From the IMG/VR virus record IMGVR_UViG_3300032116_000747, positions 1-34,132 of that record: a stretch of DNA of 34,132 bases; one strand, given 5' to 3'. The translations under genes and the position numbers were made by a program. Positions within the stretch are counted from its first letter, which is position 1; every line of letters begins with the position of its first letter. This document shows, in pieces, positions 8,718 to 34,132 of the stretch. The stretch is from a virus. The notes beneath the pieces are model-generated. The model did no database searches. It was given only the letters and a program-made list of their open reading frames with translations, and had not been told where the DNA came from.

Positions 8718-8766
8718 AAGTACTCCTTTAGTTAATTAAGTTAATAAAATATAAAAATATAATTAC

Positions 8767-8794
8767 AATATAAGTAATTAATTGGTTAATTCAA
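8767..8794 (-). promoter_or_regulatory. Candidate sigma70-like promoter of the SSB gene
   Basis: The minus strand has TTGAAT (plus 8789-8794), a 16-bp spacer and TATATT (plus 8767-8772), about 50 nt before the start codon. It would drive the SSB-uvsX-nuclease-helicase unit. The surrounding 108-nt gap is nearly all A/T, so chance matches are possible. Confidence 0.35.
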
Positions 8795-8810
8795 AGTAAA
8801 ATGTTAAATT

Positions 8811-8826
8811 TATTTATAATAAATAT
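8811..8826 (-). promoter_or_regulatory. TATAAATA plus ATATTTAT element (copy 2) upstream of the SSB gene
   Basis: The minus strand carries ATATTTAT (plus 8819-8826) directly followed by TATAAATA (plus 8811-8818), the exact T4 late promoter core in the sense orientation. The SSB gene may therefore have both an early and a late start. This is inferred from motif only. Confidence 0.35.
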
Positions 8827-9212
8827 CAGTTCCAAGTAAATTTCTTAAAGAATACTAATTCAATAACGCGGAATCCTGCATCATCTGTTAGGATGAATGA
8901 ATTCTGATAATTACTCCAATCTAATTGATATGTTTTGTCTAATACACCATTGTTTACTGCTCGTATAACTTCATTAAGAGCATTAACTGTATATAATGTA
9001 TTGGTTTCTTTTTTACGGTGTATGCTAATTGTATTCTGACCTCTTTGTGTAGTTGCATCTGCATTATACGTACAATATAAATTGTCTGCAGCTTCTGCGT
9101 TAGCAAATACAAATATTCTGCGTTCTGGTATTACATAACTTTGTTGTATGTAATCGGTTACTATGTTTAAATCTGATTTATGTGCAAATGTGCAAAGTAA
9201 TTGTGTTTTCAA
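8826..9212 (-). CDS. Conserved phage protein of unknown function
   Basis: A 128-residue protein starting at a TTG (9212) three bases after the stop of the preceding gene. GGAT just upstream acts as ribosome-binding site, and no ATG is available in frame near there. The central block NTISIHRKKETNTLYTVNAL (80-99) and the WSNYQNSFIL segment look strongly conserved and resemble unnamed proteins I recall from marine T4-like phages, but no function is known to me. There are no membrane segments or catalytic signatures. Its place between a putative nuclease and the SSB suggests a replication or recombination role. Confidence 0.8.
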   Translation of the reverse strand: MKTQLLCTFAHKSDLNIVTDYIQQSYVIPERRIFVFANAEAADNLYCTYNADATTQRGQNTISIHRKKETNTLYTVNALNEVIRAVNNGVLDKTYQLDWSNYQNSFILTDDAGFRVIELVFFKKFTWN

Positions 9213-9215
9213 TGA

Positions 9216-10481
9216 TTATCCTTGTTGTTGTAAATATGGGTAATTTTGAGATGCTGGCACTGATCGCAATACAAATCTATATCTTCCCTGTGATAACGAA
9301 TCAATTACAAATGCTTCTGGATTTGCTATATGAGGTTGTGGATTTCTTTTATTATAATAAATTAATCCTAAAATTTCTTTAAAGAAATTTTCTTTAATAG
9401 CAGTTAATTCAGAAATAAATTCTCTAGGTTCTTTAATAAACAAATTTCGTTCTACTCGTTTAAACCAAAGAACTGCATTAGTATTAATATTATCAATTGG
9501 TTCTCCAATTCTTACGCCGGTAGGATTTTCTTCACCAGCTCCTAGCTTAATTTTTTCAGCGTCATCATCTGAAATCCAATATGATTGAGTTTCGCCGCCG
9601 GCTGCGACAGTTAATCTTGTATCTCTAACATCAGTATCTAATTCGGTTTGGTAAAAGATTTCGTGTAATTCTTTAAATCCTTCATACCAATTATAAAATG
9701 CAGATTTTTTCCATTCCATTCCGGCTGATAATTTATCACCTTCAATACTTTCAATAAATCTCGTTTCAAATATCATTATTAATTTTTTTAAAGATTCAGC
9801 TGATTGAGGACTTACCATATGTTTTAAATATGTATATGGATCGCCAATTGTTTTAAATGGTAATACGATATCTTTATAAAATTCTTGAATCTGACCTGTT
9901 AGTTTAAATTTAGTAGCTGCACCTTCTTTTGCAGGGTCAAATTTTCCTTTTTCTAATTCTTTAACTTCCCATTGACCGTTTGGCATAACGATATCATGAT
10001 ATTCCGTACCACCTGGTTTTGAATCTTTAACGCCTAATAATATCGATACTTCTCCATTTCCCATTCCACCTCTAGCACCGCCAACGTTTACTAAAAAGAA
10101 ATCTTGAAATGCCTTCCATCCTTCTTGTACAAATGAATCAATTGAATGCACTCTAAAATTTTTATTAAAGTTATGTTTTTGATCATCGGAGAGTGATTTA
10201 TATACAGAAAAAATTTGTGTATTTACTTCATCAGGCAAACCAATTGATTTTATTTGTTTAATAATAGAATAATTATCTTCTTGTTGCGTTTCTTGTGATG
10301 TAGAATCTGTAGGTAGTTCGTTTAATCTTTGTGCTCGTTCTACAATTTGTTGAGCTTGATTAGATGATATATTTGCAGTCTCTAATAAGACATCATATAA
10401 TATTTTGTAATCTTTAGCACATGTTGGATACCCTTTGGGCAAACGAAAACACCACTCTGTTAAAATTAAATCAATGTTCAT
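9216..10481 (-). CDS. Unknown protein with a possible PD-(D/E)XK nuclease core
   Basis: A 421-residue protein, ATGA-coupled to the polymerase gene upstream. Residues 133-180 read as a candidate restriction-type nuclease core. A glycine-rich GGARGGMGNGE with Glu144 is followed by Asp163 in YHDIVMPNG and Glu172-Val-Lys174 in QWEVKEL, in the order Glu, Asp, ExK of PD-(D/E)XK enzymes. The rest is mostly helical with no recognised motif; a Gln-rich low-complexity stretch lies at 60-70. If real, the nuclease would sit between polymerase and SSB genes and could serve recombination, packaging or host DNA breakdown. The motif reading is mine and has not been tested by a profile search. Confidence 0.7.
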   Translation of the reverse strand: MNIDLILTEWCFRLPKGYPTCAKDYKILYDVLLETANISSNQAQQIVERAQRLNELPTDSTSQETQQEDNYSIIKQIKSIGLPDEVNTQIFSVYKSLSDDQKHNFNKNFRVHSIDSFVQEGWKAFQDFFLVNVGGARGGMGNGEVSILLGVKDSKPGGTEYHDIVMPNGQWEVKELEKGKFDPAKEGAATKFKLTGQIQEFYKDIVLPFKTIGDPYTYLKHMVSPQSAESLKKLIMIFETRFIESIEGDKLSAGMEWKKSAFYNWYEGFKELHEIFYQTELDTDVRDTRLTVAAGGETQSYWISDDDAEKIKLGAGEENPTGVRIGEPIDNINTNAVLWFKRVERNLFIKEPREFISELTAIKENFFKEILGLIYYNKRNPQPHIANPEAFVIDSLSQGRYRFVLRSVPASQNYPYLQQQG

Positions 10482-11800
10482 AAAGAAATAGTTTTTATTT
10501 TATCATAAATATCGCCAACCTTCACTTTTACTGGAAAATTGCCTTGTTCTAATACTGCTTTGATTTGAGGCAGTAACTCTCGTGCTTCTTGATAATTTAC
10601 ATCAAACAATACCGAGTCATATGTATATAGAATCATACAACTGGTATATGATTGCAACATTTCTTGTACTTGTTGCAATTTGCGTACTGATACTTCGGTT
10701 TCTACTGCTTGCAAATAATAGTTAAAAAGTTTATTTGCTGTCATGTTTTGCAAACCTTCACGACAAATATTGCGTTTCAATATCGGTGTTTCTACGCAAC
10801 CGGTTTTTTTCCATTTGTTCCATATCTTGTATACAAAATCATTTACTTGTGCAAAAAATGGAATACTTAAAAATTCTCGATCAATTCCTCCATATAACAA
10901 ACGGAATGTAATTGATTTGCTTTCATCTCGTTGTTCATCTGTAATTTCGTCTACTCCAAAATAGAATCGACCTAAATAATCGTGTATGGATGATGTTGGT
11001 AATTCATAACCAATCATTTTTGCAATGAGCCGTACGTGATATGAATCGAAGTCCATTTCGACTAATGCACCTCGCTCAAATCTACTATGAAATGCAGCGC
11101 GCGTACCATCTTCTTTATTCATTGCAGCAAAGTTGAATCCTCGAAATGCATTACTAGGACGGCCGGTTGTTGTGTGATAATGATATTGAGAATATACTCG
11201 GCCATCATGTATCAATTCTGGCATTCGGAATGTTTCGTCTACTGCTAAACCAGCTGATTCTATTGTTGCAAACGTTTTAGGATATGTGTCATTGAATTGC
11301 AAATATGAATCAGTTAATTTTGCATTTACGCACATCGGCCAAGCATAGTGACGTATCTTTTGACACATTGCCATATGTTGTTGTAATGGCACAATACAAT
11401 TAACTGCATCTAATGCAGTGTGTCTGCGCCAATAAAATTGATGTGCTGCCGTTACATAATGTGATTCGTCATATGCCTCGCCATATGTATACCACCACAA
11501 TGTTTTTACATCCCATACGGCATTGTTTCCACCGGTTTGTAGCCATCGCTTCTTGTCATGAACAAAGATATTCTGCAGAGCCATAAACTCCGGGACAAGT
11601 TCTGAAAAGCCCCTTAGTTGTTCAGTATGATACATAGGAATCATGCGTTCTACATCATCTTCTGTATAGATGTATATTGCACATAAACGATTGACTGCAG
11701 GATGATTTGTGGGACTACAGTATATAGGTACTAGCAAAGTTTTTCTATCTTTGATATACTGTAACGTTTGTTGTGCCTCTTCTATAGTATCCACTATCAT
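10478..11800 (-). CDS. Compact family A DNA polymerase with degenerate 3'-5' exonuclease region
   Basis: The 440-residue protein contains the family A palm/fingers. There is a TTTGRPSN motif (210-217), motif A EMDFDSYHVR with Asp250, motif B Arg291-x3-Lys295-x3-Phe299-x3-Tyr303-Gly (RDESKSITFRLLYGG) and motif C TYDSVLFDV with Asp395. Compared with E. coli PolI, the steric-gate Glu after motif A is His255, and the HDE of motif C is Tyr-Asp-Ser. Residues 20-150 resemble an exonuclease fold (NIFVHDKKRWL, then WDVKTLWWYTYG), but the first DxE is missing (LLVPIYCSP), so proofreading is probably lost. The thumb is also very short. There is no clear Shine-Dalgarno. This is the likely replicative polymerase of the phage, in place of T4's family B gp43. 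Confidence 0.88.
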   Translation of the reverse strand: MIVDTIEEAQQTLQYIKDRKTLLVPIYCSPTNHPAVNRLCAIYIYTEDDVERMIPMYHTEQLRGFSELVPEFMALQNIFVHDKKRWLQTGGNNAVWDVKTLWWYTYGEAYDESHYVTAAHQFYWRRHTALDAVNCIVPLQQHMAMCQKIRHYAWPMCVNAKLTDSYLQFNDTYPKTFATIESAGLAVDETFRMPELIHDGRVYSQYHYHTTTGRPSNAFRGFNFAAMNKEDGTRAAFHSRFERGALVEMDFDSYHVRLIAKMIGYELPTSSIHDYLGRFYFGVDEITDEQRDESKSITFRLLYGGIDREFLSIPFFAQVNDFVYKIWNKWKKTGCVETPILKRNICREGLQNMTANKLFNYYLQAVETEVSVRKLQQVQEMLQSYTSCMILYTYDSVLFDVNYQEARELLPQIKAVLEQGNFPVKVKVGDIYDKIKTISL

Positions 11801-11824
11801 TATATGGATAATAAGAAAATTTTA

Positions 11825-12448
11825 TCACGAATCCAATCTATTAATATCAACGGGAATATAAAATGTACTATCGATATAAAATTCTGACAAGTTAGTTAAA
11901 TATGTAAATAATTCAGGTATTTGATCAGCTGCAGTTATAATAGATTGACGATTTTTTGTTATTACGCCTGGAGTATATACATTATTAACTGTCGTATCTT
12001 GTAAATTTCCTGTTATGTGCCATGTAAGTAAAACTGCAGTATATAACGTCCTATCAATTTTTTGATTAATCCAATCATTATATTGTTGCTGGTCAATTTC
12101 TATTACATTATATTCATTAAGTTTTTTTATAAAATATCTAGTTAATATGCCGGAATCTATTACTGACTTATTAATAGTTGGAGCTGATGAATTTGGTGTT
12201 TGTGATGCAACTCTAATATTTTTTAAATTTTTATACGAATCAACTGTTGTATTATTTTTAACATATTTTATCAGTTGTTTTGATAATCTAATATTCCATA
12301 CCGATTCGGTATAAATTTCATTTGTAGTAGTATAACGATGATATGGACCTTTATATTCTTTACGATCTAATGTCATGTACTCTTCACCAAACGTATAAAG
12401 GTTATTCATCGTTTCATCGGTGGTATAATATGATTTTATTCTTGCCAT
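11825..12448 (-). CDS. Structural protein candidate of unknown function, end of baseplate cluster
   Basis: A 207-residue protein that follows the hub gene by one base. The N-terminus holds NLYTFGEEYMTLDRKEY and KGPYHRYTTTNEIYTES. This 'YT-G-E, EY-G-YH-Y' pattern recurs, as far as I recall, in unnamed virion proteins of marine T4-like phages. The remainder is Asn/Thr/Tyr-rich with a short helical part around 100-150. No catalytic motif, signal peptide or membrane segment is visible. Codon and composition style matches the tail genes upstream, not the replication genes that follow. A baseplate or tail-associated role is inferred from position. Confidence 0.7.
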   Translation of the reverse strand: MARIKSYYTTDETMNNLYTFGEEYMTLDRKEYKGPYHRYTTTNEIYTESVWNIRLSKQLIKYVKNNTTVDSYKNLKNIRVASQTPNSSAPTINKSVIDSGILTRYFIKKLNEYNVIEIDQQQYNDWINQKIDRTLYTAVLLTWHITGNLQDTTVNNVYTPGVITKNRQSIITAADQIPELFTYLTNLSEFYIDSTFYIPVDINRLDS

Positions 12449-12449
12449 G

Positions 12450-14744
12450 TTATTCTATACTAGGTCGCATTATACATTTTAATTCAGTTAACCACTGTCC
12501 GGTATTGGATACATTATGTGATACATTTAAAATACTAAATACCGTATTCATTCTATATCTCATTGGCAATGCTTCAAATTGTACAACGTCGCCGTATCTA
12601 AAACCATTGATGCCATCTATTGTAATCGTAGCTTCAAATGGAAATATCGGAGCTGACATTAATTGTGAAGTACGAAAATCAGCAAATGGTTTTTTTATAT
12701 ATTCTGCTAATGCTTTATATAAAGATTGTTGTAATTCAGGAACATTTGGGGATAAACCAAATTGTATTTTTGCAGTTGCTAGATCTGATACGACTTTCTC
12801 ATGATCATCTCTATATCTTTGTATCAATGTATTGATTTGATCTTTATTTTGCGCACTATACATAAAATTAATATATGGTGCAACTTTAGAATTTGATACT
12901 TGATCCCCGCTATTCATTACATATGATAAATTTTTAGCATTTTCTGGTAATTTTGCTGATAATGTAAATGATTGAACAATACTGCCATTTGGATGATTTG
13001 AAAACATTGGTATTGAATATGGAATTACATTTGCAGTAGATGTAGTTTTTTCTAAAATATAATTAGCATCCATTAATAATAACTTTGTTGGATCATCCGG
13101 ATGTGATACTAATTTTAAATTAATGGCGCCGGCGGTAGCTTGATTGATTATAGTTGCAATCAATGTTATAAATGTTGATACTGAAAAGTCTTTTGTTTGC
13201 TTGGCAGACAAATTTGTAATTAGATCTTGTATAACTTCAATATTTATAAGAATTCTAGATGGATAATAACGACCGTATGTACTATTTTTATCATAAACAC
13301 CAGACCATTCTTTCCACCCACATGATTCTAAAGTTGTTTTAGATATATTCTGAGCAATTAGATCATTATTAATTCCTCCAAAATATACTAAATCACCATA
13401 AGTATTGCAATCAGGTGGTTGTACGCTTAATAAACTAGGAAATTCAGTAACAGGAGTTACATTAGTATTAGCATATGGTTGTTTTGGTAATAATAAAATA
13501 TCATCAGGCGTACTAGAAACCAAACTTTCAAAATAATTGCTATAACATAATTGATCGGTATGTATAATTTCCGGAGAAGCAACACTACCTGTTAATTTAG
13601 TAGTAACATAAAAATTTATAAAATGTATTAATGACCCCATTGTAATATATCTAGTATAATTTGTTTGCGGGCCAGTTGTGGTCGATTGATTTACATATGC
13701 AGGATATGGTTCGCCAATTAATATAAACCGATCAGTATTTGCTGGATTATTTGCTCCTTTGATAGTAAATGGCAACATATATGTAGCTTGTTTTTCTAAA
13801 CCAGGAACTTTGCTTTCAAAATCTTTTTTTACTTCTTCAATTTGATTGTATAATATTTGATAAAATTCCGGGCGAGCTGCTGCTTTTACATCATCAGGTG
13901 ATGCCGGTGTTTGTTTTGTTTTATCGGTAGTTTCTTCCGTTTTAATAAACATAGACACATCTGTATAAACATTGCTAGTACCAGTTAATGATATTGAAGC
14001 TTCAATAGTACCATCATTAGTATATTGAAAATCAAATGATGTAATAAGACCTTCAAAACTAACAGCATTCATTCTGCTAATTTTTTTTTCAAATTCTTCT
14101 ACATCCCAATTTGGATAAAGTTCTTTTATTTTATCTTTATTTGGTAAAACTTTTGGAGTTAGTAATCCATCTGTATTTCTTCTAGATACTATTGCCGATT
14201 CTGGATGTTCTATATCAATACTTGCGTAGCGTCCGGGACGAAACCAAATTTGTTCTACATGATCTAAATCAACCAATGGATTTGGAATTATAAACTTTAC
14301 CGTTGCTTTATTTAATAAACCCATCGAATGATCGCCAATATTGATACTAACATCAGTTAAATATGGACCAGTTCTTCTACTAGTATCTAGTATAGATTTT
14401 TCTCTAACATAAGCATTTCCTAATATAATATCTGGATTTTTTGGATCTAGATTTATATCTCGTTCTGTATAAAAATCAATTTCTTGTTGATTAACTTGAC
14501 GATCGGATAAATAGCCATTTGGTCCGGATGGTAAATACCGGCCGGTTTGTACTTGAATTCCGCCTAAAGTTCCTACGATAGCAGTTGCTGAGTTATTACC
14601 AGTATATGCTGTAACTTGAGCATTTGCAATTTTACCTAACATGAAGTTCAATGCTGCTTCGCTTCGGTCATAAAAACCAGAGCGACCTCGTGCGTTTAAT
14701 TCTTGACGCAAATTAGCATCTACTTCTGTATAAAATATATTCAT
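12450..14744 (-). CDS. Baseplate hub protein, gp27 / late-control-D-like
   Basis: The 764-residue protein has features of contractile-tail hub proteins. Residues 125-195 contain LTDVSINIGDHSMGLLNKATV and DHVEQIWFRPGRYASIDIEH, where the hub barrel 'alkkAtv...l..l..lymRPG..v.vewG' pattern is found. The last 75 residues (ATITIDGINGFRYGDVVQFE, then ILNVSHNVSNTGQWLTELKC) match the usual C-terminal 'G-i-GD-f...-H-i...-W-T-l' ending of gpD/gp27/VgrG-like hubs. In the virion it would form the ring that joins tail tube and spike. It overlaps the gp53-like gene by 4 nt (ATGA). It is larger than T4 gp27 (391), with a long middle insert (about 270-600). Confidence 0.72.
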   Translation of the reverse strand: MNIFYTEVDANLRQELNARGRSGFYDRSEAALNFMLGKIANAQVTAYTGNNSATAIVGTLGGIQVQTGRYLPSGPNGYLSDRQVNQQEIDFYTERDINLDPKNPDIILGNAYVREKSILDTSRRTGPYLTDVSINIGDHSMGLLNKATVKFIIPNPLVDLDHVEQIWFRPGRYASIDIEHPESAIVSRRNTDGLLTPKVLPNKDKIKELYPNWDVEEFEKKISRMNAVSFEGLITSFDFQYTNDGTIEASISLTGTSNVYTDVSMFIKTEETTDKTKQTPASPDDVKAAARPEFYQILYNQIEEVKKDFESKVPGLEKQATYMLPFTIKGANNPANTDRFILIGEPYPAYVNQSTTTGPQTNYTRYITMGSLIHFINFYVTTKLTGSVASPEIIHTDQLCYSNYFESLVSSTPDDILLLPKQPYANTNVTPVTEFPSLLSVQPPDCNTYGDLVYFGGINNDLIAQNISKTTLESCGWKEWSGVYDKNSTYGRYYPSRILINIEVIQDLITNLSAKQTKDFSVSTFITLIATIINQATAGAINLKLVSHPDDPTKLLLMDANYILEKTTSTANVIPYSIPMFSNHPNGSIVQSFTLSAKLPENAKNLSYVMNSGDQVSNSKVAPYINFMYSAQNKDQINTLIQRYRDDHEKVVSDLATAKIQFGLSPNVPELQQSLYKALAEYIKKPFADFRTSQLMSAPIFPFEATITIDGINGFRYGDVVQFEALPMRYRMNTVFSILNVSHNVSNTGQWLTELKCIMRPSIE

Positions 14745-20231: not shown

Positions 20232-20262
20232 AAAAAAAGGTAGAACCGAAATTCTACCTTTT
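20232..20262 (-). terminator. Intrinsic terminator after the tail sheath gene
   Basis: An 11-bp stem (AAAAGGTAGAA with TTCTACCTTTT, plus 20235-20245 and 20252-20262) with a 6-nt loop. The minus-strand T run is plus 20232-20238. T also follows in the plus direction, so it could act both ways. Confidence 0.88.
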
Positions 20263-20283: not shown

Positions 20284-22749
20284 CTATTCAGGGAAACTTG
20301 CTCCGGTTGGTTGAATATTGAAATCTAAAATAATGAATTCAGCCGTACGAGTCGGTTGAAGGAATATTTGTCCGTATAAAATATTTTGGTCAATTAAATC
20401 TGGTGTATTATTTGATTGATCCATTACTACTCGGAATGCATATAATCCTTGCTGAGCTCTTACTTGTTCCATGTATGGATTAACGATGCTTAAGAATCTG
20501 TTTCTCGTCGCTGATGTATTTTGTTCAAATACTAAATAACGAGTTGAAGATGCAATAAATTTCTTAACTGTAATTAATAAACGGCGCACATTTACGCGGT
20601 CTAATGCGCTCGGGCGAGCCTGTAATGTCTTTTGCCCCCAAACACATACTCCATCATTTAAGAAGTTCGCAATAGGGTTAATACGAGCTTGATACAATGA
20701 ATCTCGATCTGATTGACTCAATCTCTTATATGTATCAGTTACTTGTGTTAATCCTCCACGATTTAAACCAGCTGGCGCATACCATGGTGCTGATACTGCA
20801 TCGTTAAATGCTAATACTCCAGGAACCATTACTGATGCTGGTACCCATAATGGAACATTTTTACTTGGATTGATAATTCTCAACCATGGCCAATAAGTTG
20901 CTGCATAGCTACTATCAACTGTTGTTACTTGATTAATTACGGTATCAGTACTGTCTGTTAATGCATTTGAATCCATTACATAAAATGTATCTTGACGAGT
21001 TTCAGCCATGTTTCTAGCAATCTGCGTAATATATGGATGTAAACTATGAATGATACCTGGCGTTAACAACATGTTCATATCATAATAGTCGGTATTTGAT
21101 AACAATGTAAATGCTTTGTTATATGATACAGCACCAGTTGCAGTTGATGTTGAACAATCAAATCCAAATGTATTCGTTGCAGTAATATACTGTCCTGCAT
21201 ATTTTTTTAGATTTGGTTTAGCTCCATCAAAACCTCCTTGAAAACCTACAATAAATTTACGAGTGTCAAGTGATACATTAGTTGATAACGTTCCCGTTGT
21301 TAATGCTTCTTCCAATGAACCTGAATATGCAGATGTTAATGACGGGAAAGCTGCTTGTAAAGATTGACTAACATTTCCTAAATAAAAATCTGCGTTGCTT
21401 CCAGTTGAGGCATTTGCTACAACGATTGGAGCTAAATAATTCAAATTGTTTTGTTTAGTAAAATCAAATCCATGATAATTATTTGAACTATATGCATTAT
21501 TTAATACCTGTGATGTAACATATGATGTAGCTAATAAATTAGTCGATGACACATTTGGAACCGGTGAATATAATGCGCGGAAACCAAATGGAATTAATGT
21601 TTTATCATTTGTTTTATTTGCAACAGCATCTGTTACTTCAACTCGTATATATTTAGATAAATTTGGATAATCTCCATTTACTACAATGTTATTATTAGCA
21701 TCTAACGTTTGAAAGCGGTCGCCAATTACGCGAGCAATATAACGAGGAGAATCTGGATCTAAATTTACATTCAAGAATTGTTCAACACGATCTGGAGTAG
21801 AATCAGTATCATTTGATGTATATGGCGAATTTGCAATACCTGGTATTACTGTATTAACTCTACGAACTTCTACTGTAAATGTTCCATATCCATTTGGATC
21901 AGAAACTTCTGATGATGTTCTTACATCTCGAATACCAACCTTTGTTTCATAATTAACTGAAGTACCATGAGATAAAGTATGAAAACGGAATAAGTTTTTA
22001 ACAGCACTACCAATTTTTTGTGATGTAATCCATGGTGTATTCGCAGTTTGATAATCTTGACGTAAATCTAAACTAGATATAATACCTAACGTTGTTGTTA
22101 CAGCACCTAAATTTGCAAATGAAGCAGTAGCTGCGCTATTTTCATATTGAACATATACTGGATAGTCTGTTGATTTAGGTGAATTGCCAAATACTTTTGT
22201 TAAGTATTTATTGCTTGAATTTACAATAGATGATGAAATTGCAGCGCCTTCTGCTTCTAAAAATGCACCCGTAAATCCAATTGCAGAATCTGATGCTGCT
22301 ACATATGATCCTGAAATTTTTAATGCAAATGATCCAGACCCTGCATCAAGCAAAACTGAATCTTCAAATAATGCTGTTGTACCATCTGTTGTTACAGCTT
22401 GAGTTGGATGTAACACGTGTGTTATTTCAGAAACAGATGCTGATGTTGCAATGATTGCTAATGCGCCATTAGTTAATCGATATCCATCTTCATATAATAA
22501 ACGTGTTACTGTAATTACATTTCCATTTCGCAAATAATCTTGTACAACAAATGGAACATATGAATCATCAGTGTATGATCCAAATATTTGTTCAAATTGT
22601 CCAAAAGATGTAATTTGCGTAGGAACTAATGCAGGTCCTTTTACTGTAGGTCCTACTACTGATGCACCAATTTGTGCAACGCCGCCGGCTAAAAACGATT
22701 GATCTACTTCGTTCGTAAATACGCCTGGCGAAACTATTCTTTCTGCCAT
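20284..22749 (-). CDS. Tail sheath protein, gp18-like
   Basis: The 821-residue protein has the sheath N-terminus (ERIVSPGVFTNEVDQSFL, then GASVVGPTVKGPALVP and ITSFGQFEQIFGSY). It also has the conserved C-terminal core: NFLNDGVCVWGQKTLQ, LDRVNVRRLLITVKKFIASS and DLIDQNILYGQIFLQPTRTAEFIILDF. The C-terminal strand takes part in the inter-subunit mesh that drives contraction. The variable middle (about 100-450), rich in Ser/Thr/Asn, makes it longer than T4 gp18 (659) and probably forms outward-facing domains. It has AGGAG before the ATG and its own terminator. Confidence 0.95.
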   Translation of the reverse strand: MAERIVSPGVFTNEVDQSFLAGGVAQIGASVVGPTVKGPALVPTQITSFGQFEQIFGSYTDDSYVPFVVQDYLRNGNVITVTRLLYEDGYRLTNGALAIIATSASVSEITHVLHPTQAVTTDGTTALFEDSVLLDAGSGSFALKISGSYVAASDSAIGFTGAFLEAEGAAISSSIVNSSNKYLTKVFGNSPKSTDYPVYVQYENSAATASFANLGAVTTTLGIISSLDLRQDYQTANTPWITSQKIGSAVKNLFRFHTLSHGTSVNYETKVGIRDVRTSSEVSDPNGYGTFTVEVRRVNTVIPGIANSPYTSNDTDSTPDRVEQFLNVNLDPDSPRYIARVIGDRFQTLDANNNIVVNGDYPNLSKYIRVEVTDAVANKTNDKTLIPFGFRALYSPVPNVSSTNLLATSYVTSQVLNNAYSSNNYHGFDFTKQNNLNYLAPIVVANASTGSNADFYLGNVSQSLQAAFPSLTSAYSGSLEEALTTGTLSTNVSLDTRKFIVGFQGGFDGAKPNLKKYAGQYITATNTFGFDCSTSTATGAVSYNKAFTLLSNTDYYDMNMLLTPGIIHSLHPYITQIARNMAETRQDTFYVMDSNALTDSTDTVINQVTTVDSSYAATYWPWLRIINPSKNVPLWVPASVMVPGVLAFNDAVSAPWYAPAGLNRGGLTQVTDTYKRLSQSDRDSLYQARINPIANFLNDGVCVWGQKTLQARPSALDRVNVRRLLITVKKFIASSTRYLVFEQNTSATRNRFLSIVNPYMEQVRAQQGLYAFRVVMDQSNNTPDLIDQNILYGQIFLQPTRTAEFIILDFNIQPTGASFPE

Positions 22750-22786: not shown

Positions 22787-23068
22787 TTATTCTGTCAAAC
22801 CAGAATCTGGAGTAAATGTTCCATCAGCTATATTGATTTGCCCATCACCATACCGTTCACGCATTTTGTCAAGTAATTCTTGTTCCTGTTTGCGAAGCGC
22901 TTCAAATTCCGTGTAAAATCGTTCTTGTTCCGAATTTAAATATTCTAAACGTCGATTAATTGCAATTTGTTCTAATGAAATACTACCCAATGCATTTGCG
23001 TTAGTTGCAAATGAGTTGCGAAGATTTTGCAATTCATCTAGATGTTCTTTGTCTAATTTTCTTGTCAT
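22787..23068 (-). CDS. Small coiled-coil protein of unknown function
   Basis: The 93-residue protein is almost entirely charged helix. Residues 1-72 (for example LEQIAINRRLEYLNSEQERF, then ALRKQEQELLDKMRERYG) give heptads fit for a coiled coil. A short conserved-looking ending follows, YGDGQINIADGTFTPDSG. The RYGDGQI-type ending recurs in unnamed T4-like phage proteins as far as I recall. It has AAAGGA directly before the ATG and is the last gene of the cassette starting at 26162, just before the sheath. It may be a structural or assembly factor. Confidence 0.8.
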   Translation of the reverse strand: MTRKLDKEHLDELQNLRNSFATNANALGSISLEQIAINRRLEYLNSEQERFYTEFEALRKQEQELLDKMRERYGDGQINIADGTFTPDSGLTE

Positions 23069-23076
23069 TTTTTCCT

Positions 23077-23631
23077 TTATTTTGTTTTTAATGTATTTAA
23101 ATTGTTTTGTATAGCTGTTTTATACATTTCTGGCATATCTTGTTGTTCTAATTCTTTGAATAAAGAAATAGATTCATCCCATAACCCAATCCACCAAGAA
23201 CTAACAGCTTGTTCAAATCGTAAACCTAATATTCCTGGATATTCTATATCAGTTCGTGTAGCTGCAGGTTCCGTTGCATGTTCTTGTCCTAAAACTGACA
23301 TGGTATATGATTCTTGCCAATCGCGGTTGCGTTCATATATTCTTGCAAGTAAAAAATATGCTTCTGGTCTTTTAGGTTTTAAAGAAACTGCACGCAATAA
23401 AATACCTTTAATTGTAAAGATACGATCGCCTTGGCGTTCAAAACACAAAGCCATACGTAATGATGCTTCATATTGTAAATTTACATCATACCCAAATTCA
23501 ATGCTACGTAAATAGAATCCAGCAGCTGATGCTGTTTGTCCTTGTTGTTCATATGCATATCCTAGATTAAAATTAACTTCTTGGTTTCTAGGTTCTTGTA
23601 TGTATCGTTGCAACCAATATTCTATTGTCAT
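23077..23631 (-). CDS. TPR-repeat protein
   Basis: The 184-residue protein has at least three tetratricopeptide units. Visible are NFNLGYAYEQQGQTASAAGFYLRS-type residues (21-44), ASLRMALCFERQGDR (57-71) and PEAYFLLARIYERNRDWQESY (89-109), with the W/L-G-Y-A-F-A-P spacing. TPRs hold protein partners. Its start overlaps the stop of the 844-residue enzyme by 4 nt (ATGA), so the two are co-translated and probably work together. TPR proteins often accompany glycosyl- and methyltransferases in surface-decoration loci. No signal peptide is visible. The specific partner is unknown. Confidence 0.85.
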   Translation of the reverse strand: MTIEYWLQRYIQEPRNQEVNFNLGYAYEQQGQTASAAGFYLRSIEFGYDVNLQYEASLRMALCFERQGDRIFTIKGILLRAVSLKPKRPEAYFLLARIYERNRDWQESYTMSVLGQEHATEPAATRTDIEYPGILGLRFEQAVSSWWIGLWDESISLFKELEQQDMPEMYKTAIQNNLNTLKTK

Positions 23632-26162
23632 GATTTACTTTCTGGTGTTACTGCATTTTCACATCCTTGACATAATGCAAAACATTGCAATGGACGTGGA
23701 ATTACATCTTCATAATCTTGTTCGTAGATGTTTCCTGTAATATGTTTTAAGCCATAATCCATACAACATAATGAAACATCACCATTTGGTAAAACTACAT
23801 TGTGATATAAATCTTCAATGCATCCGCAAGTCATTGCTTTATCGCCATGATCCATGTGTTGAAATCTATCTTTGTATTTTTCTAATTCTGGTTTAATAAT
23901 GGCTTCGCCTAACAAATTGCCGGCGCGAGACCAAAATGTTGGAATGTGGGTTTCTGGCCATAAATGTTTAACTGATTCATGCGGTTTTCCCATGCACATA
24001 ACATAAAAGCCTTGAATATGATTTTCTAATTCTTTAAAACGTTCGAATACTTGAATTAATCTAGGAGTAATAGGATGTTTTGCAATTCGTTCTTGATCTG
24101 GAATATGCAAACAAAAACCTCCATTTGGTCCACTTACAAATTTAATATCTTTGATGCGTTCAACATCTTCGAGAGTCATTCCTACACCCGTGCTAAAAGC
24201 TGATATTGGATGTCCTTGTTGTGATGCATAAATCAACATGTCCGTACATCGTTTGTTTAGCCATGGCTCAGTAAATCCAGAAAATGTTACGCGTACTTCT
24301 TTTGGTAATTTATCAATAACATGTTTAAAGTTTTTAAAAGTCATTGTTTTATCTGACTTATAGACATTCAACAATGTTTTTTGCGGACAAAATGCACAAT
24401 CAATTACACAACCTTTAGGTGGTATCGACGTTGTAAATTCTAAAGTTGGCCATTCTGTTAATCGCCAATATTCTTTTTTCTCCGCTTTACGATTATCAAT
24501 GTAAAGAGCTATTTCATTATAATATTCAATAAAATGATCATTCCATAAATCCCATTTAATATCTACCCCATCCCAAGAATAAACATCGAATGTATGAAAT
24601 TGTTTTAAATAAGTATCGCGAAACGTTCTAAATTTTTCTTTTAGTTCAGGCGTTGATAAATGCCATTCTCCTACAATCTTTTTTACATTTTGTTTGATCC
24701 ATGATACGCGCTCTGGAGTAAAAATATCATATTCTCCACCTTCACAATCAATTTTCATGAAATCAATTTGGGTTACATTGTATTCTTTTAAGAATGTATC
24801 AAATGTAATTGCATCAGCGGTTGCTGTTCTACCGTGAGTTTCAACAACATCTGAAAAATACAATCCTTTAAATTCAGTTTCGCCATCAACATTGTTTATA
24901 CCTTTATTAATTAAAGTAACATTGTTATGATGACCAATATTTTTCTTCATTGTATCAAACAATGTAGGCTTTGGTTCAAAACAATAAACATGTTTAGGTT
25001 GTTTGTCTAATATTGAAAATGTAAATGGTCCTACTGATGCGCCGATGTCTAAAACAACGTCATCTTGTTCGACAGGAAATTTTTCTGTGTAATCTTCTCG
25101 TACAAAAATTTCTTCAGTAACCGTTTCTTGAAACCATGCATTTTCTGCAATTTCTCCCCAATCAAATGAAGCTTGTTGTTTTTCTCGTTCAATGAATGAA
25201 TCAAAGAACGTTTGGGGCATTTTAAGGATATATGCTGCATTATCTTGAAAGCCGAATGATATTAATAAATCATCTCCGTGTTCTGTTAAGCCGCAGCAAA
25301 ATTCAATCTCGCCACCCATAAAACTAAATGGTTGTGAAACGTGCTCAATATTCCAATCTGCATCCCAGATTACAAAACGATGAGTATATTTTCCATCTTT
25401 TTGATCAAGTTTATTTTTAAATAAATCAACTTCGTGGATAATGCAAATGCGTTTTCCTTTATAAGGAATAACTTGAGAACTACCACGCATATCTTGATGT
25501 TGACCAGTACCTGGTTTTAATATGCGTTGCCAACATTCTAAAGTCTCTGAATCTCCTTCTATTACCTCGGTTGGGTTAGTCCATTTAACCATGTGCCCGG
25601 GCATATCTTCTACAACCATCCAATTCTTTTCACAATATGATGTTTGATCATATGGATGTTTGATGCGACTTCTTTTGATTTCCGTAACAGAACCATCTTT
25701 AACTTCAAGTTCAGACATTTCCATACGTCCTTCACCATTAGTTGTAGTGTCTCTGCGAACTCCTACTAAATACAATTTATCATTCCAACGAGTTAATCGA
25801 CCATCTTCTAATCCAACAAAGTCCCATAATGGAGTTTTATCAAAACGACTTGTGTCAATTTTTGTGTATGATTTTAATTGTAAGTCTGCGGTTAATTCAC
25901 AAAACCAATTTGTAGTTCTAAGATGTTGATCTGCTTCTGGATGAAGATATGCTAACGGTCCCCACCGATTAATAAAAACTTGATTGTTTTCTGAATGATA
26001 TAAGGTATAATTTACATGACGAAGATTCATGATTAATTTGCCATTATCATTGTAGATAGATGGATTCATTAATCCAGTACCGCCAGTAACATCATTGGGA
26101 AGTGTTATAGGATGTATTGATCCTCCGTTACGCGTAACAGTTTTAACAAAGTTTGAATTCAT
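23628..26162 (-). CDS. Triple-domain protein: GH130/GH43-like propeller + FkbM methyltransferase + radical SAM
   Basis: The 844-residue protein has three recognisable parts. (1) Residues 1-325: a five-blade-propeller-like region with GLEDGRL (117-123), RGSSQVIPYKG (226-236), HRFVIWDADW (261-270) and IEFCCGL..ISFGFQDNAAY (286-311). This resembles GH130/DUF377-type glycan enzymes or binders. (2) Residues 350-555: an FkbM-type SAM methyltransferase, with motif I VLDIGASVGPF (370-380), CFEPKP (394-399) and DFMKIDCEGGEYDI (467-480). (3) Residues 572-844: a radical SAM domain with Cys585-x3-Cys589-x2-Cys592 for the 4Fe-4S cluster, and Cys-rich C-terminal sites (779, 781, 799, 800, 827, 831, 834) like SPASM auxiliary clusters, including LPNGDVSLCC. 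Substrate unknown; its place between fibre and sheath genes suggests modification of a virion protein or glycan. It has a weak ribosome site. Confidence 0.85.
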   Translation of the reverse strand: MNSNFVKTVTRNGGSIHPITLPNDVTGGTGLMNPSIYNDNGKLIMNLRHVNYTLYHSENNQVFINRWGPLAYLHPEADQHLRTTNWFCELTADLQLKSYTKIDTSRFDKTPLWDFVGLEDGRLTRWNDKLYLVGVRRDTTTNGEGRMEMSELEVKDGSVTEIKRSRIKHPYDQTSYCEKNWMVVEDMPGHMVKWTNPTEVIEGDSETLECWQRILKPGTGQHQDMRGSSQVIPYKGKRICIIHEVDLFKNKLDQKDGKYTHRFVIWDADWNIEHVSQPFSFMGGEIEFCCGLTEHGDDLLISFGFQDNAAYILKMPQTFFDSFIEREKQQASFDWGEIAENAWFQETVTEEIFVREDYTEKFPVEQDDVVLDIGASVGPFTFSILDKQPKHVYCFEPKPTLFDTMKKNIGHHNNVTLINKGINNVDGETEFKGLYFSDVVETHGRTATADAITFDTFLKEYNVTQIDFMKIDCEGGEYDIFTPERVSWIKQNVKKIVGEWHLSTPELKEKFRTFRDTYLKQFHTFDVYSWDGVDIKWDLWNDHFIEYYNEIALYIDNRKAEKKEYWRLTEWPTLEFTTSIPPKGCVIDCAFCPQKTLLNVYKSDKTMTFKNFKHVIDKLPKEVRVTFSGFTEPWLNKRCTDMLIYASQQGHPISAFSTGVGMTLEDVERIKDIKFVSGPNGGFCLHIPDQERIAKHPITPRLIQVFERFKELENHIQGFYVMCMGKPHESVKHLWPETHIPTFWSRAGNLLGEAIIKPELEKYKDRFQHMDHGDKAMTCGCIEDLYHNVVLPNGDVSLCCMDYGLKHITGNIYEQDYEDVIPRPLQCFALCQGCENAVTPESKS

Positions 26163-26203: not shown

Positions 26204-27607
26204 TTATCTACCTAACATTGAGTTGTATGTTTGAAGAATTGTATTAAGTTCAATAACACTCTCGGAGCCTATAAAGTTTCCAATAAATGCAAATTGATAG
26301 TTTTTCGTAGCACCTCCAATTATAAAGACTGAATCGATATATAAAGGCCATTGACCGCCAAAGATTACCGGAGACTGCAGATTGCCTCCAGAAATAACAG
26401 ACACGCGGTTTAAACCTGATTGTTGAGCTCTAAATAATCCAGATAATCCTACCGAGCCAGCTGAATCATTACTAGTATATTCGGTAGCGCCAGCGGTCCA
26501 ATATACTTTATTTAATCCATTAACTTGGCGATTTGCTCCAAAATCCCATGCTCCATAGATACCTGTATCTAAACGTAGATCTCGAAAATCTTCTACATTA
26601 TTCGTATTAGTATACATTCCATATGCAAACTGTACGTTATTGAATGAATTAGTGTACGGTCTAGTGCTTTGAGCAATACCATAATTTGCTTGTGACCCAT
26701 TTCTATCATGTATCCAATTGCCACTAAAATTTAAATATTCAGATGGATTGCTTAAAGACCATTTATTTTGTTCTGCAGTTTCTCCTGCAAATGGATAATA
26801 GTCTAGATTTACGGCTGAACTACCTAGTTGAGATGTAGATGTTAGTATCGCTTTTTGTAAGTATTCTAAAGCAGCGATGCGCGTTGGGTCAGTAATGCCA
26901 GAATTAGCTAAGAATGTATTTAACTTACTGTCTGATACTCGTATTTCAACATATTCAGTAGTTGTTCCTACATCATCTGTTGCACTAACTTCTAAACGTA
27001 TAGTTGTAAATAAAACAGTATTATCTGGCATGAAATACGGCTGCGTATCTATGATATCGCCTTTACTGTTTGTGAACGGGAATGGCCCTTGTGTTTGAAT
27101 TAAACCGCCATCTGAATAAAACTTATATAGATATGAAATATTCCCAGTTCCGGTCCAAGTACCTCTTGTTATATTTGGAGCTGATACTCCAGAAATTAAT
27201 TCACCTATTCCGAAACTAGGTGCAGCGGTTGCTGTTGGTCCTGCTGCTGGTGGTTCTTGAGGAATTAGGTCTTTTGTTTCAGAATTCCAATAAAAGTACA
27301 ATAAGTTTCTTCCTGTATTGACTACATAATACCCAGTGTCTGCAAAATTTGTATCACTGCCGCAAAAATCTTCTGCATAAAAACGATTATCATTACCAGC
27401 TTCAATATTAAAAATATCTGGCGAATTTGCTGCAGCTATCAAACTAATCTCACTATATGTCGTCTCAAACCTATCGCATGTTGGACCTGCAGTTGGCCAA
27501 CCTGGGATTCCGGATGTTGCTAAGCCGCCGATATTAATAACACTAGTAATATTTGTCCCAGCAATTTGAGAAATAGAACTTAATGGTATTCCTGATATAT
27601 TTGCCAT
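26204..27607 (-). CDS. Putative tail fibre-associated protein with Ig-like domain
   Basis: The 467-residue protein is rich in Ser/Thr/Asn/Gly, without signal peptide or membrane segment. Residues 1-118 form an N-terminal part of unknown fold (GIPLSSISQIAGTNITSVINI, with a CDRF...EDFCGSD cysteine pair). Residues about 120-225 look like an Ig/fibronectin-type beta sandwich (PNITRGTWTGTGNISYLYKFY, then TIRLEVSATDDVGTTTEYVEIRVSD). The remaining 240 residues are aromatic- and Asn-rich, as in receptor-binding tips. It starts one base after the collagen-like gene, so it belongs to the same transcript. The exact role is unknown; an adhesin or fibre accessory is inferred. Confidence 0.7.
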   Translation of the reverse strand: MANISGIPLSSISQIAGTNITSVINIGGLATSGIPGWPTAGPTCDRFETTYSEISLIAAANSPDIFNIEAGNDNRFYAEDFCGSDTNFADTGYYVVNTGRNLLYFYWNSETKDLIPQEPPAAGPTATAAPSFGIGELISGVSAPNITRGTWTGTGNISYLYKFYSDGGLIQTQGPFPFTNSKGDIIDTQPYFMPDNTVLFTTIRLEVSATDDVGTTTEYVEIRVSDSKLNTFLANSGITDPTRIAALEYLQKAILTSTSQLGSSAVNLDYYPFAGETAEQNKWSLSNPSEYLNFSGNWIHDRNGSQANYGIAQSTRPYTNSFNNVQFAYGMYTNTNNVEDFRDLRLDTGIYGAWDFGANRQVNGLNKVYWTAGATEYTSNDSAGSVGLSGLFRAQQSGLNRVSVISGGNLQSPVIFGGQWPLYIDSVFIIGGATKNYQFAFIGNFIGSESVIELNTILQTYNSMLGR

Positions 27608-27608
27608 A

Positions 27609-29498
27609 TTATAATGCTATCCATGTATTATCCGGGTCAAATCTTACAATTATTTTATCAGATGCATCATAAATGTTATGCCCAATTAATCTAACAAAAC
27701 GACCTGAACCGGTTGGGGCAATTTCAGTTACATATCCAGTATTTGTTGTAGAAACATATAAAGGTCTTCCGGAAGGTGCCGTCCCGCCGAATTGGTCGTG
27801 GTATGTTGTTGAATAAATACCGTTTAATAAAACAGTAGTTACACCTTCAGCACCTGCACTTTCAACACATATACCTAATAACTTAGTTGCGGTTTGTGTA
27901 TCTGCATCTGCAGGTTCCCAATTATTATTTGTAGTTAAATGTAAAAGTTGACCTGGGGTTACGGAACTTACTGCAGAAACATCAGCTTCGCCAATTATTA
28001 GTCCATTAAAATAAACTTGGTCGGTCCAGTTTTGTAAATCGGCATATCTATTAACTGAACTTACACCTTGTCTAATAACAGGGCCACCGCTGATTAGGTT
28101 TATATCGACGCCACCACCATAAAAAGTATTCCCAGATTGCCATCTTAAAGTTCCAGAGTTACCATTTATTTCAGTACTAGAAACTAGTGTCAATGTGCTT
28201 CCGTCAAATGTTAAATTTGATTCAGCAACAGCTGCACCAGCACCATCAGATGTTAACATTTCGTTATTAGATCCAGGAATAGATCCACCGCCACCGGAGA
28301 TACCTTGAATACCTTGCGTACCAGTTGTACCTTGTGTTGCTGTTCCAACTGCTCCTTGCGTACCAGTTGTACCTTGTGCTCCCGTGGTTCCTTGCGTAGC
28401 AGTACCTACGGCACCTTGTGCTCCCGTGGTTCCTTGCGTAGCAGTACCCGTAGTACCTTGGGCACCAGTTGTTCCTTGTGTACCAGTTCCTCCAGTTGCA
28501 CCCTGTGCACCTGTTCCTCCTGTATTTCCTTGCGCACCAGTAGCTCCTTGCGTACCTGTGCCTCCAACATTACCTTGTGTGCCTACGGCACCTTGCGTAC
28601 CCGTTCCTCCCGTTCCTCCAGTTGCACCTTGTGTACCAGTTGTTCCTTGTGCTCCAGTGCCTCCAACATTACCTTGGGTGCCTACGGCACCTTGTGCTCC
28701 AGTGCCTCCAACATTACCTTGGGTGCCTACGGCACCTTGTGCTCCAGTGCCTCCAACATTACCTTGGGTGCCTACGGCACCTTGCGTACCTGTGCCTCCA
28801 ACATTACCTTGTGTGCCTACGGCACCTTGCGTACCCGTTCCAGTTGTTCCTTGTGCTCCAACAACTCCCTGAGCACCTATCGCACCCTGTGTTCCTGTTG
28901 TACCTTGCGTACCATTCGTACCAGCAGTACCTTGCGAGCCTACTGCTCCTTGGGCACCGGTTGTACCCTGCGTACCATTAGTTCCAGCAGTACCCTGTGT
29001 TCCCGTACTACCAGCAGTACCCTGTGTTCCCGTACTACCAGCAGTACCTTGTGTACCTGTAGCACCTTGTAAACTTAATGCGGTATTATATGATAATGCT
29101 TTTGTTGAAGTATTAAATACAACAACATTTGTATCTGAAGTAGACCCTAATGATACTGCTTTAATTGATCCACTTAATTGCAGTGTATTATTTGATCCAG
29201 AAATTACAATTGCTTCTGCACCAAATTTACCTAGTTTAACTGTATTATCAGCAAATGCTTCAATAACCGGTAATCCTGCAACGGTATTGACACTAAACAA
29301 TGAATCAGACAAATCATCAGACACGGAAAACAGTGTACCGTTATTTCCATTAACAGTGAATATGTCTGTTCTACCGGTTGATCCAGATCCAAACAACGTT
29401 AGTGATCCCGATGCTTCTTGTATCAAAGTTTGTTTGAAGTTTGCTGAGCTTGTGAAGCTCATTATACTGGATCCAGGTGTTATTATAATATCTGCCAT
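27609..29498 (-). CDS. Collagen-like tail fibre protein
   Basis: The 629-residue protein has a beta-rich N-terminus (1-143, probably virion attachment), a Gly-X-Y collagen-like shaft (about 145-403, some 85 triplets such as [15 protein letters not shown]), and a C-terminal head (411-629). The head begins NLTFDGSTL and contains [19 protein letters not shown] and a [10 protein letters not shown]...VLLNG fold, reminiscent of small phage decoration (DUF2190-type) domains. The shaft has essentially no proline, so stability would rest on Thr/Gln contacts and trimerisation by the flanking domains. The gene precedes the Ig-like protein gene without a gap. Weak AAAGAT before the ATG. Confidence 0.88.
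28651..28830 (-). repeat. Four tandem 45-bp units in the collagen-like shaft
   Basis: Units at 28651-28695, 28696-28740, 28741-28785 and 28786-28830 encode [15 protein letters not shown]-type 15-residue blocks. The first two are identical, the third differs at its last base, and the fourth at a few bases. A related unit lies at about 28551-28595. Near identity at third positions means recent expansion. Confidence 0.92.
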
Positions 29499-32961: not shown

Positions 32962-34132
32962 TTACTCCTTATCAAATTCTGTAACTAGTTTATCCACATC
33001 TTTACGTTCTGCAAACACGGTATAGAAACAATTTACAACGTCGTTACTTGCAACGGTGATATAGGTATCAGTTATTTCTTCCACCCATAAGTCCTGAGCT
33101 TTGCCCACCGCAGTTAAGTTTACTGTAATTGAATCTTCATGCACTAATGCATACCAATAATCTGGTAATTCTATGCGTGTTGTGCCTTGCAATCTACCAC
33201 GAACGTATACTGAGTGTTCTGGGCCTTCTAATACACCATATTGTAATTTTTTACCTGCTTTAGTTGGGTGATCAATAATAAATGACTTAACCGTACCTCG
33301 AATAGTTCCATTTACATTCAATGTAGATCCATCGAAGGTCATATTAGCTTCACCATTAAATGGAGTTGCACCGCCGGTTGCAGTAACTACATAATTATTT
33401 ACGTTATTTGTTATTGAAGTAGTAGCATTTGTACCTTGCGTACCTTGTGTACCAACGGTACCTTGCGTTCCAAGAATACCTTGGATTCCTTGTGCTCCTG
33501 TAGCACCCGTAGTCCCCTGAGTACCTACAGTACCTTGTATACCGGTCGTACCCTGAGTACCAACCGTACCTTGTGCTCCCGTGCTACCAGTTGCACCTTG
33601 TGCTCCGATGACGCCCTGAGCTCCCGTAACGCCCTGCGTTCCAAAAATACCTTGGATTCCCTGAGCACCCGTTGCACCTTGCGTTCCCGTAACACCTTGG
33701 ATTCCTTGCGTTCCTGTCGTACCTTGAGTACCAACCGTACCTTGACTACCAGCCACCCCCTGAGCTCCGGTGGCGCCTTGCGAGCCTACGGCTCCTTGCG
33801 TACCAACGTTGCCTTGTGCTCCTACCGTACCTTGCGTACCAAGAACACCTTGGATTCCTTGTGCACCGGTGGTGCCCTGCGTACCCGTAACGCCCTGAAT
33901 GCCTTGCGAACCAGTTAGCCCCTGAACGCCTTGGACTCCTTGTGCTCCTGTAGCGCCTTGCGTACCTGTAATGCCTTGCGAGCCTACGGCTCCTTGTGTT
34001 CCCGTCGTACCTTGCGTACCAAGAACACCTTGGATTCCTTGTGCACCCGTCGTGCCTTGTGAACCAGTTGCACCTACCGTACCTTGTGCTCCAGTAACGC
34101 CTTGCGTTCCCAATGTTCCCTGAGCACCAGTC
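32962..34132 (-). CDS. Collagen-like tail fibre protein, N-terminus beyond the window
   Basis: The reading frame stays open to the right edge, so the true start lies beyond 34132. About 230 residues of Gly-X-Y shaft are visible (GTQ, GAQ, GVT, GIQ, GVL), with the recurring blocks GAQGIQG and GTQGTTG. A C-terminal head of about 155 residues follows: NMTFDGSTLNVNG, then KSFIIDHPTKAGKKLQYGVL, EGPEHSVYVRGRL and LPDYWYALVHEDSITVNLTAVG. This head recurs at the ends of structural proteins of marine viruses, as I recall. The linker TFDGSTL is shared with the other collagen-like gene, so the two are related. Confidence 0.88.
   Translation of the reverse strand, partial: TGAQGTLGTQGVTGAQGTVGATGSQGTTGAQGIQGVLGTQGTTGTQGAVGSQGITGTQGATGAQGVQGVQGLTGSQGIQGVTGTQGTTGAQGIQGVLGTQGTVGAQGNVGTQGAVGSQGATGAQGVAGSQGTVGTQGTTGTQGIQGVTGTQGATGAQGIQGIFGTQGVTGAQGVIGAQGATGSTGAQGTVGTQGTTGIQGTVGTQGTTGATGAQGIQGILGTQGTVGTQGTQGTNATTSITNNVNNYVVTATGGATPFNGEANMTFDGSTLNVNGTIRGTVKSFIIDHPTKAGKKLQYGVLEGPEHSVYVRGRLQGTTRIELPDYWYALVHEDSITVNLTAVGKAQDLWVEEITDTYITVASNDVVNCFYTVFAERKDVDKLVTEFDKE

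Follow-up and report, generated by a model that had tools for sequence, protein, structure and literature searches.

A phage tail-locus gene fusing a GH130/GT108-like propeller, an FkbM methyltransferase and a radical SAM domain suggests a glycan-tailoring enzyme

The virus record IMGVR_UViG_3300032116_000747 carries, between its tail fibre and tail sheath genes, a single gene in which three enzyme-like modules are joined. What could such a protein be doing in a structural locus? The gene occupies positions 23628-26162, minus strand, of the window (the whole 34,132-nucleotide stretch that was analysed) and is a complete open reading frame (ORF) of 844 residues with an ATG start. A preliminary description, made from the letters alone, had placed a glycan-type propeller, an FkbM methyltransferase and a radical S-adenosylmethionine (SAM) domain in this frame, and all three folds were recovered. 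We propose, with a probability of about 0.52, that the fusion is a glycan-assembly and tailoring enzyme of a tail-locus cassette, acting most likely on threonine-rich collagen-like fibres. Taken separately, glycan tailoring is a likely function, and the tail fibre is our best guess at the target.

The fusion cannot be attributed to chance, since 15 further contigs of IMG/VR carry it with 84-100% identity (contig ends truncate some of them) and its ratio of nonsynonymous to synonymous substitution rates, 0.05-0.11 for the fusion and 0.03-0.13 over the three domains, indicates strong purifying selection on each of them. The propeller takes up residues 1-330 (25173..26162), the FkbM-family methyltransferase residues 333-560 (24483..25166) and the radical SAM domain with its Twitch extension residues 561-844 (23631..24482), all on the minus strand. 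The motifs pointed out earlier (GLEDGR, VLDIGASVGPF and DCEGGEYD, Cx3Cx2C and seven C-terminal cysteines) are all present. Profile searches domain by domain gave a more uneven picture: FkbM and SPASM scored over their cut-offs and Radical_SAM just under, and the propeller, missed by Pfam and NCBIfam, was recovered as a fold by modelling. PHROGs gave the protein no name other than 'methyltransferase', and PDB sequence searches, profiles included, returned nothing specific for it. One near-identical copy (locus L017, IMGVR_UViG_3300008267_001883, 7958-10385) has a deletion and a change of frame within FkbM that split it into a propeller-FkbM ORF and a radical SAM ORF; it is either a real pseudogene or an assembly error.

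For the propeller, no Pfam or NCBIfam family matched residues 1-330. Its AlphaFold2 model, built with 67 homologues, is a five-bladed propeller of high predicted quality (predicted local distance difference test, pLDDT, 90; predicted template modelling score, pTM, 0.91). In a Foldseek search with this model, PDB ranks 1-34 were all GH130, GT108 or putative glycosidases of that type (E 1e-9 to 1e-6), with GH130 mannoside phosphorylases first and GT108 mannosyltransferases of Leishmania among the top matches. Profile-profile comparison, for which the GH130 profile was drawn from GH130 proteins in genomes of one bacterial family, places GLEDGR on the GH130 GxEDxR motif; NP (33-34), R48, W..GLEDGR (117-122) and the terminal F.G...D307 likewise align with GH130 motifs. 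The Asp of that motif is essential and invariant in GH130 enzymes, for which BT3780 provides the reference residues (PMC4599007). Across 67 phage propeller sequences N33, R48, E119-D120, R122, K179, H243, Y259 and D307 are invariant; H243, Y259 and R136/R137/R226, considered as possible counterparts of the basic phosphate-binding residues of phosphorylases, are conserved in a part of the domain where the GH130 alignment is unreliable. The predicted fold can thus be assigned firmly to the GH130/GT108 type, and the domain is a candidate glycosyl (mannosyl) transferase or phosphorylase. A fold search of BFVD also places this propeller in proteins of 450-1300 residues from Pithovirus, Solivirus, Satyrvirus, Indivirus and Mimivirus LCMiAC02, some of them annotated as fucosyltransferase, polysaccharide pyruvyltransferase or LicD; such annotations of fold relatives also point to glycan work for the phage domain.

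Propellers are known in phage spikes, and the model has weak fold matches to tail proteins, which could mean that the domain is a non-catalytic sugar-binding or structural module, such as a virion adhesin, and the protein a component of the virion. We regard this as very unlikely. The residues that make up the GH130 pocket (Glu-Asp, Arg, Asn and Asp) do not vary across the 67 sequences, the top PDB fold matches are all enzymes, and a propeller joined to two SAM enzymes ahead of a tetratricopeptide repeat (TPR) protein does not resemble an adhesin.

The family assignments of the other two domains are firm. FkbM is matched by Pfam PF05050 (6e-15; 56.2 bits versus a cut-off of 22.7) and NCBIfam TIGR01444 (73.4 versus 37.7 bits), in addition to the two motifs given above. 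For the radical SAM domain, Pfam Radical_SAM reaches 25.3 bits, slightly under its cut-off of 29.5, and SPASM 23.6 bits, over its cut-off of 21.5 with a match spanning the first half of the motif. The AlphaFold2 model is a partial TIM barrel (pLDDT 84; pTM 0.86), and the SAM-cluster motif C585x3C589x2C592 is invariant in the alignment of this domain. The seven C-terminal cysteines lie at 779, 781, 799, 800, 827, 831 and 834, and the site C781x12G794x4C799 ... C831x2C834 is invariant in 37 sequences. Set against the seven-cysteine SPASM definition (PMC6231123), CX9-15GX4C-CX2CX5CX3C-C with two auxiliary clusters, just the first four ligand positions are present and the second half is absent. 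Judged by this cysteine pattern, the C-terminus is a BtrN-like Twitch (half-SPASM) with one auxiliary cluster site, not a full SPASM domain.

This weakens the earlier suggestion of a SPASM-like, peptide-modifying enzyme. The corresponding alternative is that the radical SAM domain modifies a peptide of a virion protein, introducing a crosslink, epimer or formylglycine in the manner of sulfatase maturases or of enzymes acting on ribosomally synthesised and post-translationally modified peptides (RiPPs), while the remaining domains work on that protein too. Repeat-peptide fibres do adjoin the gene, and CteB, SuiB, anSME and SkfB are listed among the Foldseek matches. Yet the first two ranks go to BtrN, which acts on an aminocyclitol, and DesII, which acts on a sugar; Pfam detects no RiPP recognition element (RRE) or PqqD in the fusion or its neighbours, and a search for a precursor peptide, not an exhaustive one, found none. 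Given a one-cluster Twitch and no RRE, chemistry on a peptide has no advantage over chemistry on a sugar as an explanation, and we judge this alternative improbable. A role in defence was considered and rejected, the sole PADLOC match, at 20.9 bits, being to viperin through the radical SAM core. Relatives of this domain that stand alone (about 60% identity; L138, L139, L140, L141, L143, L144, L159 and L025) have a conserved neighbourhood of another kind: they sit between an upstream gene of 311-321 residues (DNA polymerase B-like in L025) and a downstream gene of 240 residues, with no fibres, and possibly serve a different function.

Placing the fusion among its relatives indicates that the 844-residue protein is a clade-specific form of a widespread modular cassette, in which a propeller gene is followed by a TPR gene. 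The propeller was confirmed in at least 595 stretches of IMG/VR. Of 88 propeller clusters at 90% identity, 77 have the TPR gene directly downstream, 2 have it fused into one ORF and 4 have it no more than four genes away, usually with overlapping genes; the two were thus adjacent or fused in 79/88 clusters. The window follows this pattern: its 184-residue TPR protein (23077..23631, minus) starts 4 nucleotides before the fusion ends, so that the TPR link proposed in the preliminary description holds and the partnership extends to relatives as a constant one. The other modules are more mobile. Arrangements include PROP-FKBM-RSAM, PROP-FKBM, PROP-RSAM, TPR-FKBM-RSAM, TPR-MT2-FKBM-RSAM, TPR-RSAM and FKBM-DUF6445, among others, the radical SAM domain being fused to the propeller in some relatives and to the TPR protein in others. 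In the radical SAM tree the window's fusion falls in one clade, and the tree suggests that propeller-radical SAM fusion arose at least two times. Across the cassette and some of its relatives the same places are filled by FkbM, a second FkbM-like methyltransferase, a TylF-like methyltransferase, GT17, GT25, GT2 and WavE, all glycan enzymes. The fusion is therefore retained among close relatives but elsewhere gives way to separate or reshuffled modules, and is not a unique construction; association with tail loci persists even where the modules are separate genes. That the system is self-contained, as had been supposed, is doubtful because relatives carry further glycosyltransferases, methyltransferases and DUF6445 proteins.

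DUF6445 proteins have a conserved H-x-D ... H ... R (YH-x-D ... H ... sRL) pattern, as in 2-oxoglutarate-Fe(II) oxygenases, and may be dioxygenase-like; the GenBank label 'FkbM methyltransferase' on one such gene (L036:18109-18702) looks wrong. Genes of the GDP-mannose dehydratase family (PF16363) were considered as a mark of the cassette; they occur in several cassette records and also in one cassette-free relative, and are not diagnostic. Seven loci from metagenome-assembled genomes (L194-L200) all carry the propeller-TPR pair. Their bins are labelled Chitinophagaceae, Verrucomicrobia, cyanobacterium, Bacteroidetes, Rhodobacteraceae, Pirellulales and Woesearchaeota; several are plainly phage contigs, fibre or sheath genes are present in L196-L198, and since the bins probably hold phage contigs the host labels are not to be trusted. 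These loci being phage-like, no clear cellular source of the propeller emerged, and a plasmid search gave no match.

The company the cassette keeps bears on where its product would be placed. Phage glycosyltransferases and radical SAM enzymes act in known hypermodification of DNA, so the enzymes might instead glycosylate or otherwise alter bases against restriction; glycosylated phage DNA is cited in PMC12619734. We consider this the least probable of the alternatives, as the cassette is tied to tail genes rather than to nucleotide metabolism genes and the cassettes showed neither a base hydroxymethylase nor a DNA-binding module.

The main competing explanation is that the cassette alters a host surface glycan (O-antigen, lipopolysaccharide (LPS) or capsule), blocking co-infection or re-adsorption of progeny. 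Polysaccharide loci of bacteria often contain FkbM enzymes, and WavE (LPS) and GT25 domains occur in the cassettes of relatives. Such a proposal was made for glycosyltransferases of the pelagimyophage host-recognition cluster, a region where radical SAM cassettes also occur (PMC7029224). On the other side, the cassette is co-oriented inside a run of structural genes, and its position between fibre and sheath would be expected to give late expression, whereas superinfection exclusion is usually early. The TPR partner and the strong linkage to collagen fibres suggest a phage protein as acceptor, and no membrane or lipid-carrier enzymes were identified among the cassettes examined. Action on the host surface is thus, in our estimation, unlikely.

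The evidence for fibres as the target comes from the genes that accompany the propeller. Collagen-like ORFs, defined as (Gly-X-Y)x12, are present at 33/70 propeller loci, compared with 0/66 helicase loci of the window's relatives (Fisher p 2.5e-12); at the loci of stand-alone radical SAM relatives the count is 0/11. Pfam collagen repeats occur in 13 of the 14 large cassette-bearing records and in none of the six cassette-free relatives, four of which are fragments. In the window itself, the tail fibre gene at 27609..29498 (minus), two genes upstream of the fusion, has proline-less, Thr/Gln-rich collagen-like Gly-X-Y repeats, and a second collagen-like fibre gene at 32962..34131 (minus), cut by the window end, has 78 consecutive Thr-rich Gly-X-Y units; both are candidate substrates. 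The X and Y positions of the window's repeats are 34% Thr and 0% Pro, and the Thr content of collagen repeats is a median of 31% near propellers versus 13%. In proline-poor collagens, of which Riftia cuticle collagen is an example, O-glycosylated Thr has a stabilising effect, and the fibre is for this reason a plausible target. Of the two surfaces suggested earlier for decoration, sheath or fibre, the fibre is accordingly the better-supported partner and the sheath is not favoured.

Several observations weigh against this proposal. One large cassette record (63.8 kb) lacks collagen, and in a sample of 44 records with a collagen-like DNA pattern the propeller was present in 2 and absent from 42, with four added positive controls detected. 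The association runs in one direction: collagen-like repeats are common in viral contigs that lack the cassette, and Thr-rich ones occur there too, so collagen does not need it, and Thr-richness was rejected as a specific mark of the cassette because it is also high in some phages with no propeller. Common descent may account for part of the link between collagen and cassette, since the cassette-free relatives belong to a single lineage. The Pfam GH130 profile (PF04041) was negative for the window record and positive for four control genomes. Finally, tail-fibre clusters include other genes whose products can act on the host surface.

Two long contigs that share this backbone indicate that the cassette is an accessory element. 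Neither G046 (160 kb; sheath 70% identical) nor G047 (173 kb; sheath 64% identical) was found to contain the propeller, and collagen repeats were likewise not found in these records. In both, a 93-residue ORF and then the sheath come after the fibre gene or region, and the interval before them is empty or holds a single 153-residue ORF. This empty site implies that the cassette occupies precisely the interval from fibre to sheath and that the lineage can do without it. The 93-residue ORF (22787..23068) forms the right border of the insertion and, like the 821-residue tail sheath (20284..22749), is retained in the cassette-free relatives; both lie on the minus strand, downstream of the fusion and its TPR gene. 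On the other side, between fibre and fusion, is a gene of 467 residues (26204..27607, minus), which has length-variable relatives at the same place beside the same fusion.

Elsewhere in the window there are T4-like replication genes, the replicative helicase being closest to that of Microcystis phage Mel-JY01 (48% identity). Positions 10478-14744 (minus) encode a 440-residue DNA polymerase A-like ORF, a 207-residue ORF and a 764-residue ORF; the 764-residue ORF matches nothing in Pfam or PHROGs, which marks the replication region as divergent. At 20235-20262, where the sheath gene gives way to the neighbouring tail gene, lies a strong hairpin with T-runs, a likely terminator. The late-promoter-like motifs TATAAATA and CTAAATA are no more frequent than expected by chance, and none marks the fusion gene; sigma-70-like sites are at chance level too.

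How, then, might the cassette decorate a fibre? Its fold and conserved Asp120 suggest that the propeller would act with inversion to transfer a hexose; the sugar would probably be mannose, supplied by GDP-mannose or mannose-1-phosphate. The FkbM domain, going by its family, would O-methylate the sugar. The radical SAM-Twitch domain, from its fold and cysteine pattern, would abstract hydrogen from the sugar, leading to oxidation, deoxygenation or epimerisation, and the TPR protein may present or dock the polypeptide acceptor. The likeliest acceptors would be the Thr-rich collagen-like fibres encoded just upstream, in which case virions would come to carry an unusual glycan. If this is correct, aquatic phages diversify their tail fibres with a shuffled enzyme kit that includes radical SAM chemistry on glycans. 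An otherwise unannotated propeller family would gain a role, part of the hypervariable host-recognition islands would be explained, collagen-like fibres would be linked to glycosylation, and new glycan-modifying enzymes would come into view. A wider reading, which we offer tentatively and hold in some doubt, is a previously unrecognised class of widespread modular viral O-glycosylation, with fold relatives in giant viruses, in which a GH130-fold enzyme serves as a protein or glycan transferase and collagen-like fibres, Thr-rich and Pro-free, receive glycans that are methylated, radical-modified and probably based on mannose.

As far as found here, the cassette is undescribed though widespread. 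In the open-access literature searched, where subscription papers could be missed, no phage cassette of GH130-like propeller, TPR, FkbM and radical SAM modules was described, in agreement with the preliminary statement that no described phage system has this architecture. Its individual parts do have counterparts. GH130 mannoside phosphorylases and GT108 GDP-mannose-dependent mannosyltransferases (Listeria Lin0857, the Leishmania MPT family) share the five-bladed propeller, the GxEDxR motif with its invariant Asp and aligned NP, Arg and C-terminal Asp positions; the phage propeller differs in having only 9-15% identity to them and falling under the Pfam GH130 cut-off, in its extra conserved motifs YCEKNW and GFQDNA, in its fusion to FkbM and radical SAM domains, and in being almost exclusively viral. 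FkbM-family methyltransferases have the same domain, here sandwiched between propeller and radical SAM. BtrN-type Twitch enzymes share the partial TIM barrel, CX3CX2C and the single auxiliary site CX12GX4C ... CX2C, but are about 14% identical to the phage domain, which is the C-terminal module of a fusion with a putative sugar substrate.

Two phage systems also bear comparison. In mycobacteriophage virion glycosylation (Freeman et al. 2023, as cited in PMC12363180 and PMC12619734), glycosyltransferases modify capsid and tail tube; there, as proposed here for a presumed fibre target, phage glycosyltransferases work on structural proteins, and these citing accounts report no GH130-like propeller or radical SAM module. 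The pelagimyophage host recognition cluster, in the available text of PMC7029224, combines glycosyltransferases and radical SAM cassettes in a hypervariable island of tail-fibre genes, and in these respects resembles the present locus; that text proposes LPS modification and makes no mention of a propeller-TPR core or of the fusions. The closest named relatives are the only two phage records in INPHARED that carry homologous propeller and TPR genes, both with modules split over genes differently from the window. DSL-LC02 (OR032571), for which GDP-mannose dehydratase and GDP-fucose genes are reported (PMC10611076), has TPR-FkbM-radical SAM and DUF6445 genes beside its fibre genes. S-SCSM2R (PQ898602), recorded with Synechococcus WH7803 as its host, has a cassette without the radical SAM domain and, since DSL-LC02 is metagenome-assembled, is the practical model phage.

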